From Pseudotabrizicola sediminis (lineage in GTDB: Bacteria > Pseudomonadota > Alphaproteobacteria > Rhodobacterales > Rhodobacteraceae), in NCBI RefSeq assembly GCF_004745575.1, contig NZ_RPEM01000002.1, forward strand, positions 186,001 to 250,000: 64,000 nucleotides of DNA, given 5' to 3'. Under the pieces are notes generated by a model. The model was not told the DNA's origin. It made no database searches and worked only from the letters and a program-made list of their open reading frames with translations. Position 1 is the first letter of the stretch. Each line of letters opens with the position of its first letter. Shown here piece by piece: positions 44,186-47,999 of this stretch. Both the position numbers and the translations under genes were made by a program.

Positions 44186-45304
44186 TCAAAGCGTTATCGC
44201 CTTGTCAGCGCTGATCGATGGCAGGCCAAGCGCCTCTCCCACCGCGGCATAGGTCAGCTGCCCGGCATGGGTGTTCAGCCCGGCTTTCAGATGCGGATCA
44301 TCGGCGCAGGCGGCTTTCCAGCCCTTGTCGGCCAGCGCCAACAGGAAGGGCAGGGTGGCATTGCCCAGCGCAAGGGTCGAGGTGCGGGCCACAGCTCCTG
44401 GCATGTTGGCGACACAATAGTGCATGATTCCATCCACTTCGTAGATCGGATCCTGATGCGTGGTGGCCCGGCTGGTCTCAAAGCATCCGCCCTGATCAAT
44501 CGCCACATCCACAATCGCCGCCCCTGGCTTCATGGTCGCCAGTTGCGCCCGGCTGACCAGTTTCGGGGCCGCCGCCCCGGGGATCAGCACCGCGCCGATC
44601 ACCAGATCTGCCTCGGCCACCGCCGCTGCCGTGGCCGCGCCGCTGGCATATGTATTGCGGAACACGCCCGCAAACACATCATCCAGATAGCGCAGCCGGT
44701 TGAGCGAGCGGTCCAGCACCACCACATCCGCCCCCATGCCCGCCGCAACCCGCGCCGCATGCGTGCCGACCACGCCGCCGCCGATCACCACGACTTTGGC
44801 GGGCAACACCCCGGGGACGCCGCCCAGCAGCACCCCACGCCCGCCATTGGCCTTTTGCAGCGTCCATGCGCCCACCTGCGGGGCCAGCCGCCCTGCGACC
44901 TCTGACATCGGGGCCAGCAGCGGCAGGCCACCAGAACGGTCGGTCACGGTTTCATAGGCAATTGCCGTCACGCCCGACTCCAACAGATCGCGGGTCTGGT
45001 CCGGGTCAGGCGCCAGATGCAGATAGGTGAACAGCACCTGCCCTTCACGCAGTCGCTTGCGCTCTGCCGCCTGCGGCTCCTTGACCTTGACGATCATGCC
45101 AGCCTCGGCAAACACCGTCTCGGCATCCGGCGCGATCTGCGCGCCTGCCGTGGTGTAATCATCATCCGTAAAGCCTGCGCCAACCCCTGCGCCGGTTTCC
45201 ACCAGCACCGAATGGCCATGCGCCACCGCGTCGCGCACGGCATCGGGCGTCATGCCGACGCGGAACTCCTGTGGTTTGATCTCTTTCGGGCAACCGATTT
45301 TCAT
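44186..45304 (-). CDS. ald: Alanine dehydrogenase
   Basis: Catalyses reversible oxidative deamination of L-alanine to pyruvate and ammonia with NAD. The 372-residue protein has the family N-terminus [20 protein letters not shown], the substrate-binding [33 protein letters not shown] region and [16 protein letters not shown]. Start at 45304. It is divergent from an Lrp-type regulator gene, the usual control arrangement. Confidence 0.95.
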
Positions 45305-45328
45305 GATGATTCCCTGTTGGTTATGGTG

Positions 45329-45334
45329 ATTATA
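45329..45334 (-). promoter_or_regulatory. ald -10 element
   Basis: TATAAT on the minus strand, 25 nt upstream of the ald start codon. The -35 region is poor, consistent with activator dependence. Confidence 0.5.
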
Positions 45335-45373
45335 CCGTCCAGTGTCGCGCCGTTCGGCCGTCACTTCTTTGAA

Positions 45374-45436
45374 TTTTCCGCGACAGATGGGGGGGGTGGT
45401 GGTAGAATCTGGCAAATAACCCCTGTCTCGCGAAAG
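45374..45436. promoter_or_regulatory. Inverted repeat in the ald/lrp intergenic region
   Basis: TTTTCCGCGACAG (45374-45386) and CTGTCTCGCGAAAG (45423-45436) are inverted repeats with some mismatches, 36 nt apart, in the 146-nt divergent gap. They are plausible binding sites for the adjacent Lrp-type protein. A run of eight G at 45389-45396 lies between them. Confidence 0.45.
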
Positions 45437-45450
45437 AAACTGCCACCACC

Positions 45451-45909
45451 ATGGACCTTGACGCAACAGACCGCCGCATCCTGAACGTGCTGCAACGCGA
45501 TGGCCGCATCACCAATGCCGACCTGTCTGAACGGGTGAACCTGTCGCCTTCGGCCTGTCACCGCCGCACCCAGCGGCTGGAGGAGGAGGGCTATATCGCG
45601 GGCTACGTCGCCCTGCTCGACACCCGGAAAATGGGGCGGCTGACAACCGTGTTTGTGGAGATCACCCTTCAAAGTCAGGCCGAAGACCTGCTTGACGCGT
45701 TCGAGCGCGAGGTGGCGCGGGTGCCCGATCTGCTGGAATGCCATCTGATGGCAGGCTCCGCCGATTACCTGTTGAAGATCATGGCCGAGGATACCGAGGA
45801 TTTTGCCCGCATCCACCGGCAGTTCCTGTCACGCCTGCCCGGAGTGCGGCAAATGCAATCCTCTTTTGCGCTGCGCACCGTGGTAAAGACCACTGCGATT
45901 GCGGCCTGA
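45451..45909 (+). CDS. Lrp/AsnC-family transcription regulator
   Basis: A 152-residue regulator: N-terminal helix-turn-helix ([31 protein letters not shown], near 19-48) and a C-terminal ligand-binding RAM/AsnC domain ([20 protein letters not shown]). It is divergent from ald and likely controls it in response to alanine or another amino acid, as AldR and related proteins do. Confidence 0.92.
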
Positions 45910-45984: not shown

Positions 45985-46281
45985 ATGCAAAAAATACTGA
46001 TTGTCGCCACGCTTTGCGTCGGTGTGTTTGCCCCGGTGGCGAACTTGTTGGCGGGTCCGCCGCAAGTGTCCGTTCCTGCATTGGTCATCCTACCGCCCTG
46101 GCTGGATGCAGGGTTGCTTGTCCTGGCATCCGGGGGGCGGGTAATCGGGCCGGAAACCGCGCCCTTCGCCCGTTTTGTCGTGAGCGACGACCCAAGCTTC
46201 TTTCCCCGGCTGGTTGAGGCCGGTGCCTGGTGGGTTTTCGACGGGCAACGTCTTGCCTCTTTGTGTGGAGCGAATGTGTGA
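45985..46281 (+). CDS. Small membrane-anchored protein coupled to a chemoreceptor
   Basis: A 98-residue protein: an N-terminal hydrophobic helix (residues 3-22, [20 protein letters not shown]) then a hydrophobic stretch with [22 protein letters not shown] and a C-terminal part ending [10 protein letters not shown]. It is probably membrane-anchored or exported. GAGGG precedes the ATG at 45985 by four bases; an in-frame ATG at 45961 also exists. Its stop overlaps the chemoreceptor start (GTGA at 46278-46281), so translation is coupled. I do not recognise it. Confidence 0.7.
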
Positions 46282-47999
46282 AACAGCACGATGACGACTT
46301 TTCCAAAAGCCAGGTCAGCGCATGCCGGAACCTGCTTTCGGCCTATACCGGGCTGTTTCCAGTGGTTCTCGCCGCGACGTGGTTCACCGGAAACAGCTTT
46401 TTCGTTGCCCCTCTCGCGTCTGCCGCCTTCCTTGCGGTCGGATGGGTGGGCCTTGGCTCCGGCGGGCCGACAGCGCGCCTGGGCGTCAGCTTTGCGGTGA
46501 TCGGTCAGGCCATTGCCCTGACCACCGCCTTTGCCGGACATGCCTGGCAGATCGATATGCACATGACCTTTTTCGCCGCTCTTGCGACCCTGATCCTCAT
46601 GGTGGATGTCAGGGCGATTCTGGCGGCCACAGGGCTTATCGTTCTGCATCACCTGTCGGTCAGCCTGCTGTTTCCCGCGCTGATCTACCCCTCGTTCGAC
46701 CTTTGGGCCAACATGGCACGCACGCTCTTGCACGGTGCGGTGGTCAGTGCTGAAAGTGCCGCGCTCGTTTTCGCCATACTGGTCCGCTTGCGCATGCAGG
46801 CCCAGGCGGCGGAGCGGGAGGAAGCCTTGGCAAGCGCCAGACAGACAACGTCCGATATGCTTGCCACCGCCGAAGTGGCGCGCGAGCACGCCGAAATGCA
46901 GCGTGTAGAAGCAGAAAACCTGCGCGCGGTCGCTGAAGCGGCGCAGCTACGTACCCATCAGGAAAGCGCGCGTGCCGAGGCCGCTCACCGCGATGCGATC
47001 GAGCTCCAGACTCAGGAAGCAGCCCGCCGCAGCGCCGCCCTGCAGGAACAGCAATCGGTCGCCAGCGCCTTGCGGGCGGCCCTTGCGCGCTTGTCCGAAG
47101 GCGATCTGTCGGTCACGATCACAACCGCTTTTCCTCCGGATTACGAAAGCTTGCGCGTCGATTTCAATGCTGCGGTCCAACGTCTTCGCGCCGCGCTGAT
47201 GAAGGTTGCAGACATGTCCGGGCAGATCAGGGAAGAGGCGTCTGTCATCAGCACGGCTGCAGGAAGCCTTGCCGTGCGAACCGAACGTCAGGCCGCCACA
47301 CTGGAGGAAACGTCGGCCGCGATGTCCGAATTTTCGGCGGCTGTCCGCAAATCGGCACAGATGGCATCAGACGCGGCATCATCAACGGCGCGCGCCCGGA
47401 CCGAAGCCAAAAGCGGTGGCGTGGTGATCGAACAGGCCATCGGGGCGATGCACCGGATCGATGAAAGTTCGCAAAAGATTGCCCGCATCAATTCCGTCAT
47501 TGGTGAGGTCGCCTTCCAGACAAACCTGCTGGCTCTGAACGCAGGCGTTGAAGCGGCGCGTGCCGGAGAGGCGGGTCGCGGCTTTGCCGTGGTCGCGTCC
47601 GAGGTCCGGGCCTTGTCGCAGCGTTGTTCCGAAGCGGCCAAGGAGATTTCGTCCTTGGTGCAAGAAGCCGGGCGTCAGGTGCGCGATGGCGTCGATCTGG
47701 TGGGGCAGACCGGCGCCGTGCTGGGCGTGATAACCGAAAGCGTGGTCGCTGCGGCTGAACAGGTCACGGCCATCGCCAATACCGCATCCAGCCAATCGCT
47801 TTCGTTGACCGAAATTGCCGTCGCCATCGCCGATCTGGACAAGGTGACCCAGCAGAACGCCAGCATGTTCCAGGAAACCACGACTGCGTGCCAGTCCTTG
47901 GATACGGCAACCTCGACCATGATTGATCTGGTGGGGCATTTTGTGACTGAAGATCAATCAAGCGCAAAGGCCATGTACAAAACCCGGCGCGTTGCCTGA
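46278..47999 (+). CDS. Methyl-accepting chemotaxis protein with six-helix membrane sensor domain
   Basis: A 573-residue chemoreceptor. Residues 17-172 form about six transmembrane helices with no large periplasmic loop. They carry polar residues inside the membrane segment: His88, Asp93, His95, Asp110, His124, His125 and His152 ([10 protein letters not shown] and [12 protein letters not shown]). A coiled coil (about 175-260) and HAMP-like linker precede the signalling hairpin with the tip [16 protein letters not shown] and [16 protein letters not shown] (410-441). The GTG start has GGAG seven bases upstream and overlaps the small-protein stop. The signal is unknown, but the layout suggests sensing inside the membrane. 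Confidence 0.9.

Follow-up and report, generated by a model that had tools for sequence, protein, structure and literature searches.

A chemoreceptor (MCP) gene of Pseudotabrizicola sediminis and the small gene that overlaps its start belong to a conserved two-gene sensory module, a larger finding than the receptor with a possible small partner that a sequence-only reading of the same DNA had supposed. Neither part of the module has a catalogued family in our searches of Pfam and NCBIfam. That the two genes behave as one unit is well supported; the output half of the receptor is an ordinary MCP and the novelty lies in the input half. The reading that we consider best, with a probability of roughly 0.45, is a two-subunit sensor of oxygen or redox state, with a candidate His-ligated heme or metal close to the periplasmic face.

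Within the window (the whole stretch of DNA that was analysed, 64,000 nucleotides long), the small gene runs from 45985 to 46281 on the plus strand (98 aa; ATG at 45985, stop at 46279-46281) and the receptor gene from 46278 to 47999 on the same strand (573 aa; GTG start at 46278, stop at 47997-47999), so that the GTGA at 46278-46281 is both the end of the former and the start of the latter. Both open reading frames and the overlap were found again in the sequence at the coordinates that the sequence-only reading had given, and H88, D93, H95, D110 and H124-H125 of the receptor lie where it had placed them. A GGAG at 46267-46270 is the likely ribosome-binding site of the receptor gene; this and all further features of the pair given below are on the plus strand. 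Just upstream of the pair, at 44186-45909, are what we take to be an alanine dehydrogenase-like gene on the minus strand and, divergent from it, a gene for an Lrp/AsnC-type regulator on the plus strand.

The Pfam scan placed the MCP signalling domain PF00015 at receptor residues 370-524 (47385-47849; E 6.8e-42, 143.7 bits against a cut-off of 34.6) and gave a weak HAMP match at residues 265-305 (47070-47192) that falls below its cut-off (E 0.015, 16.1 bits against 25 bits). A long cytoplasmic linker, probably helical, would occupy about residues 174-264 (46797-47069), and residues 1-177 gave no significant family match in Pfam or NCBIfam. Profile searches of the genome of the window returned six MCPsignal and five CheW matches above cut-off, indicating that a chemotaxis system is present.

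Conservation and reuse of the gene pair

With one genome scanned per species, at least 593 stretches matched, of which 590 were confirmed, and the best 80, mostly from close Rhodobacteraceae relatives, were kept. The sequence-only reading had staked its proposal on the small gene being conserved with the receptor, and among these best 80 of at least 590 relatives the small gene lies directly upstream of the receptor in 78, the two unpaired loci being L077 (the same place as G024 below) and L140, from a Phenylobacterium MAG. The four-base overlap contains a start codon in 42 of the 78 pairs, and in 75 the nearest usable start lies between -20 and +60 bases from the stop of the small gene. Rhodobacter capsulatus is among the carriers of the pair (L079, L096). 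In Boseongicola aestuarii (L143:5752-7565) the receptor frame is broken in pieces, apparently as a decayed copy or through sequencing error, and the upstream small gene is intact.

Across 295 genomes of the same family, some of which also occur among the 80 loci so that the two counts are not independent, the membrane domain was found in 59, and the small protein turned up in 44 of these and in no other. The small gene is directly upstream on the same strand in 42 of the 44 and lies elsewhere in the other two (G024 and G262). When the 15 receptor genomes initially without a small gene were searched with an iterated profile, 13 proved to have one directly upstream; of the remaining two, G234 (L227) has an upstream small gene that is clear by eye only and G233 (L226) ends near a contig edge. 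More widely, the domain was found in at least 52 of 398 genomes of the phylum (seven from the family, 21 from the rest of the class and 24 from other classes). All 21 class genomes outside the family have at least one receptor with the small gene upstream, and an upstream small gene was found in none of the seven genomes examined out of the 24 carriers in other classes.

On plasmids, where 15 places were examined out of the matches in sets of 16, 12 and 22 records, the small gene is upstream at 10 of the 11 alphaproteobacterial loci, the exception being Paracoccus L262, and at none of the four others (two haloarchaea, an acidobacterium and a Pseudomonas plasmid). A plasmid search with the small protein sequence alone gave no match, because a single-sequence search is too weak at such distance. 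Five second-copy receptors (L229, L230, L231, L251 and L252) have no adjacent small gene, and in each of their genomes the other receptor is paired; G318 and G440 carry two receptors each, every one with its own small gene. Three genomes (G488, G570 and G504) have a relative of the small protein and no six-helix receptor that could be found. These relatives (L196, L197 and L198, respectively) lie downstream of other genes; in G488 and G570 the upstream gene is a separate one, whose front part is joined in frame to the domain in G504.

The next commonest neighbour family occurs at 12 of the 80 loci, among the 14 commonest families looked at and with genes taken as mechanical ORFs. As no family besides the pair exceeds that figure, the conserved neighbourhood was rejected as a hint to function, and the Lrp/AsnC-type regulator, alanine dehydrogenase and ZnuA/TroA-type neighbours look like the ordinary synteny of close relatives. 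The final small-protein profile matched 124 of the 13,842 ORFs of the fetched loci, a control in which a few places are counted twice and which is not fully independent because the profile was iterated on upstream ORFs; the count of 78 in 80 is independent of that iteration. A membrane-domain gene adjoins 117 of the 124 matches. Among the seven that have none beside them, five are true relatives in stretches that were fetched because of them; the matches L069|10312 and L229|2 were judged to be due to chance, as was one in G378, within an 897-aa ORF (a weak match only, E 0.031). The genome of the window has five further MCP places, and neither the small gene nor the membrane domain is near any of them.

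Mirror-tree analysis of 70 loci gave a correlation of 0.37 between the membrane domain and the small protein, reached by none of 999 permutations, and a partial correlation given the MCP domain of -0.07, reached by 916 of 999. Rate covariation thus offers nothing in favour of co-evolution over and above common descent.

The pair is also found with outputs other than an MCP. In Roseibium (L265) the small gene and membrane domain stand ahead of a GGDEF-EAL protein, and in Haematobacter and Sphingomonas (L267, L268) they stand ahead of hybrid histidine kinases; a four-base overlap is annotated at each of these loci. A Novosphingobium locus (L271) resembles the hybrid-kinase loci by sequence. Since the same pair sits on a GGDEF-EAL protein and on hybrid kinases, the small protein and membrane domain together look like a portable input module.

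Structure and conserved residues of the two proteins

The membrane domain (about residues 18-173, 46329-46796) was modelled by AlphaFold2 from an 81-row alignment at a pLDDT of 95.2, with helices at residues 2-24/26-37, 43-61, 63-84, 97-108, 111-131 and 142-176. We read these as six membrane spans joined by short loops, the fourth (97-108) being short and the last continuing unbroken, in keeping with the earlier description of about six helices in place of a periplasmic ligand domain. A 2026 review describes class III chemoreceptors as having several membrane helices and no periplasmic domain (PMC13401364), and the modelled receptor chain likewise has several membrane helices and lacks a periplasmic ligand domain. 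K2, K10, R17, R67, R112, R170 and R172 share the inner side of the model and R148 alone is on the outer, a distribution from which the loop between the third and fourth spans (residues 87-96, [10 protein letters not shown], with H88, D93 and H95; 46536-46565) should face the periplasm. D110, in the loop between the fourth and fifth spans, should be on the cytoplasmic side.

No Pfam family, including the catalogued membrane sensor domains (MHYT, MASE and others), lay over the membrane domain of the window at E 0.5, and related membrane domains gave stray Pfam matches in one or two of 30 members (best E 0.0057). Foldseek searches of the PDB with the membrane-domain and small-protein models returned no match under E 0.001, and searching the PDB by sequence brought up nothing beyond a single stray match (E 0.24). 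The best VIA-align matches of both models are within the range of common arrangements, and structural neighbours were accordingly rejected as a clue to function.

Conservation of the membrane residues exceeds chance. In the alignment of 81 receptors W90, Q91, D93, H95, M96, F99, H125, P133, P138, R148 and H152 are invariant, and G76, Q77, G87, H88, A100, A103, H124, N145, E159 and L163 are conserved in at least 90% of the rows. The polar cluster picked out by the sequence-only reading is therefore conserved at H88, D93, H95 and H124-H125 (the histidine pair of helix 5, 46647-46652), and D110 falls outside the core, being Asp in 13 of 20 alphaproteobacterial rows. The binding of heme, metal or protons, or sensing of quinone redox state, that the sequence-only reading had suggested for the cluster would be consistent with this conservation. 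Absent from that reading were the conserved R148, H152 and E159 (46719-46754) of helix 6, which continues into the cytoplasm. A comparison of 20 alphaproteobacterial sequences with four from other classes shows D/E93, H95, F99, H124, H125 and H152 in every one of its 24 rows, and the D/E-x-H, H-H and H core recurs outside the class, both within the phylum and in an acidobacterium. Position 124 is Q in two rows of the 30-row family set, Q, F or Y in some members, partnered or not (Q in L245, whose partner is present); haloarchaeal rows have E or Q there. Five positions of the receptor form the conserved core, Asp/Glu93, His95, His124 (in most members), His125 and His152, and the small protein adds Cys94.

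H88, W90, Q91 and R148 were considered as marks of partnered receptors and rejected, as L221, L228 and L265 are partnered yet without them. That second copies lose the site when they have no adjacent partner is true in part: the core is altered in L231, L251 and L252, the last of which (G631:C1) has lost most of the conserved membrane residues, whereas it is intact in L229 and L230. L232, in the larger residue comparison, is cut off by a contig end.

The small protein, named 'hypothetical protein' in annotated records, has no significant match in Pfam or NCBIfam. Its AlphaFold2 model (79 rows, pLDDT 91.9) has a helix at residues 2-22, followed by strands at 32-35, 52-54, 62-66 and 83-86 and helices at 42-48, 72-78 and 87-93, predicting one anchor helix and a small beta-alpha-beta-beta-alpha-beta-alpha domain that is expected to be periplasmic. 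The earlier description of a hydrophobic protein therefore suits the N-terminus only, the remainder being a small folded domain in the model. The nearest folds are ferredoxin-like plaits, with subtilisin propeptides foremost (VIA-align); the propeptide 3cnq_P aligned with the domain over 63 residues (Z 7.5, rmsd 2.2) at 10% identity and a Foldseek E of 0.1 or worse, a likeness of common fold that says nothing of function or kinship.

G80 and C94 are the sole residues kept without exception in an alignment of 79 small proteins. Cys94 (codon 46264-46266) follows directly after the final modelled helix, and in the widest set its column is C in 127 of 130 rows; two of the three misses (L270, L217) have a cysteine just beyond the aligned part and the third was set aside as a chance match. 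Given the nearly constant adjacency of the small gene and this invariant cysteine, the two proteins are probably one sensor.

The candidate signal and its alternatives

From what was computed directly, namely the conservation of the pairing, the conserved residues, the predicted folds and the reuse of the pair with other outputs, we infer a mechanism that extends to physical contact, topology, cofactor, signal and direction of response. D93 and H95 at the start of the fourth span, H124 and H125 in the fifth and H152 in the sixth would form a polar site near the periplasmic face. The small protein would be anchored beside the receptor by its single helix, with its periplasmic ferredoxin-like domain, ending in Cys94, capping or completing the receptor site, and a heme or metal ion held there could report oxygen or redox state. 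A change at the site would shift helix 6, and the long cytoplasmic linker would pass this movement on to the MCP domain, giving aerotaxis or energy taxis. Because the domain occurs without the small gene in other classes and on non-alphaproteobacterial plasmids, the cysteine would not be needed in every version, and relatives outside the class would function without the small protein, if they work at all.

Two haloarchaeal plasmid MCPs share the membrane domain (E 5e-16 and 2e-21 in a profile search of a small set) and keep E-x-H, H125 and H152. On the Halobaculum limi plasmid the MCP with the domain (L263:2126-3979) lies between the gene for cbb3-type cytochrome oxidase subunit I and nirK, on the same strand. 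HtrVIII, in work by Brooun et al. from 1998, is reportedly the aerotaxis transducer of Halobacterium salinarum. Among 18 Halobacterium transducers tabulated in one source, HtrVIII is the sole 6-TM entry and its signal is given as O2 (PMC3579733); its six segments likely bind heme according to the 2026 review (PMC13401364), and a further source is inconsistent, giving aerotaxis and later 'no functional data' (PMC2020435). HtrVIII, compared by description only, would be the nearest lead to the signal. Taken together, the domain in two haloarchaeal MCPs, the O2 signal of HtrVIII and the oxidase and nirK neighbours favour, with moderate confidence, an oxygen or redox signal acting through heme or metal.

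Several alternatives, not all mutually exclusive, were weighed against this reading. A metal ion (copper, iron, zinc or nickel) could be the signal itself and not a cofactor for oxygen. The His/Asp/Met/Cys ligand set would suit such a role, a Komagataeibacter plasmid (L273) carries the small gene and MCP near FTR1 iron permease and cupredoxin genes, and two MCPs that share the membrane domain but come from another class (L205, L206) have a C-terminal stretch resembling zinc-binding CZB at below cut-off strength (E 0.0004 and 0.0001). At seven of the 80 loci (L131:11296-12288 and six others) the pair is followed downstream by what is presumably a gene for a ZnuA/TroA-type metal-binding protein, which also counts in this direction; however, the seven are all close relatives (Shimia-like), so that ordinary synteny explains them, and the 14 commonest neighbour families looked at include no frequent one of metal type. 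We consider a metal signal unlikely.

The small protein might instead be an assembly or stability factor for the receptor with no sensing role, which would be compatible with other signals. Its tight operon position and small size are consistent with this, as are the second-copy receptors without an adjacent partner and the relatives in other classes that do without one, but an invariant cysteine and a conserved folded domain exceed the needs of a mere anchor and the protein accompanies the module across different output domains, making a pure assembly role quite unlikely. In another alternative, Cys94 could form mixed disulfides with periplasmic oxidants and the receptor read the oxidation state of the small protein, with no cofactor involved. 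A lone cysteine and one glycine as the sole invariant residues of a protein whose domain is expected to be periplasmic speak for thiol chemistry of this kind. It would leave the conservation of D/E93, H95, H125 and H152 in partnerless relatives unexplained, and a second cysteine is nowhere conserved, the Cys11 seen in the protein of the window being no exception; we regard a purely thiol-based sensor as improbable.

Sensing of protons or membrane potential through protonation of buried His/Asp/Glu, with no cofactor bound, could draw on nine D/E/H residues in the 18-165 region, of which seven are nearly invariant, but is very improbable because the strict His and D/E-x-H pattern seems more ligand-like than titratable and Cys94 would be left without a role. 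Binding of quinone or quinol at the membrane site for energy taxis is just as improbable: His and Arg in a one-face membrane pocket would suit a quinone head group, but the quinones of haloarchaea and alphaproteobacteria differ, so one site would need to fit both.

The two-subunit oxygen or redox sensor with a heme or metal site remains the preferred reading. In its fullest form, which is put forward tentatively, the pair would be a new two-subunit input module, in which a six-helix domain, whose His/Asp cofactor site opens to the periplasm, is completed by a dedicated anchored protein whose C-terminal cysteine serves as ligand or redox switch; in Alphaproteobacteria the module would be plugged into chemoreceptors, hybrid kinases and c-di-GMP enzymes and would sense oxygen or redox outside the cytoplasm. 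We know of no assigned signal for many receptors with sensing helices in the membrane, and here, with a dedicated partner gene, an invariant cysteine and membrane residues that are precisely listed, the question can be put to the test in Rhodobacter capsulatus. As the same pair occurs on three kinds of output, one answer would suggest the signal for chemoreceptors, kinases and c-di-GMP enzymes alike. The pair would also add to Pfam and NCBIfam two families that our searches did not find there.

Comparison with known systems

A search of open-licence papers recognised none on the pair or on the alphaproteobacterial membrane domain, and the statement of the sequence-only reading that no signal had been assigned stands for this pair. 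HtrVIII, for which the comparison is by description only, is an MCP in which six membrane segments replace the ligand-binding domain, as in the receptor of the window. The haloarchaeal lead differs in that the two haloarchaeal copies of the domain have no small partner alongside.

Over the whole membrane domain the best VIA-align match is ImcA (PDB 8wcn), a six-helix diguanylate cyclase of Pseudomonas aeruginosa, although the alignment (Z 9.8, rmsd 4.6, 167 residues aligned) is below the level of relationship for helical bundles and ImcA is absent among the 50 Foldseek matches listed for the domain. The partner of ImcA, IsmP, is a CHASE4 protein, unlike the small partner here (PMC10904736).

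The co-component systems VtrA/VtrC and ToxR/ToxS have overlapping genes for a signalling protein and a membrane-tethered periplasmic partner (PMC9214523), an arrangement shared by the present pair, in which the genes overlap by GTGA and helix 2-22 of the small protein is read as an inner-membrane anchor. The partners differ in fold, VtrC being lipocalin-like and the small protein here a predicted ferredoxin-like plait, and the systems differ in output, which is a transcription factor in VtrA/VtrC and ToxR/ToxS (PMC9214523), whereas here it is an MCP, a kinase or a c-di-GMP enzyme.
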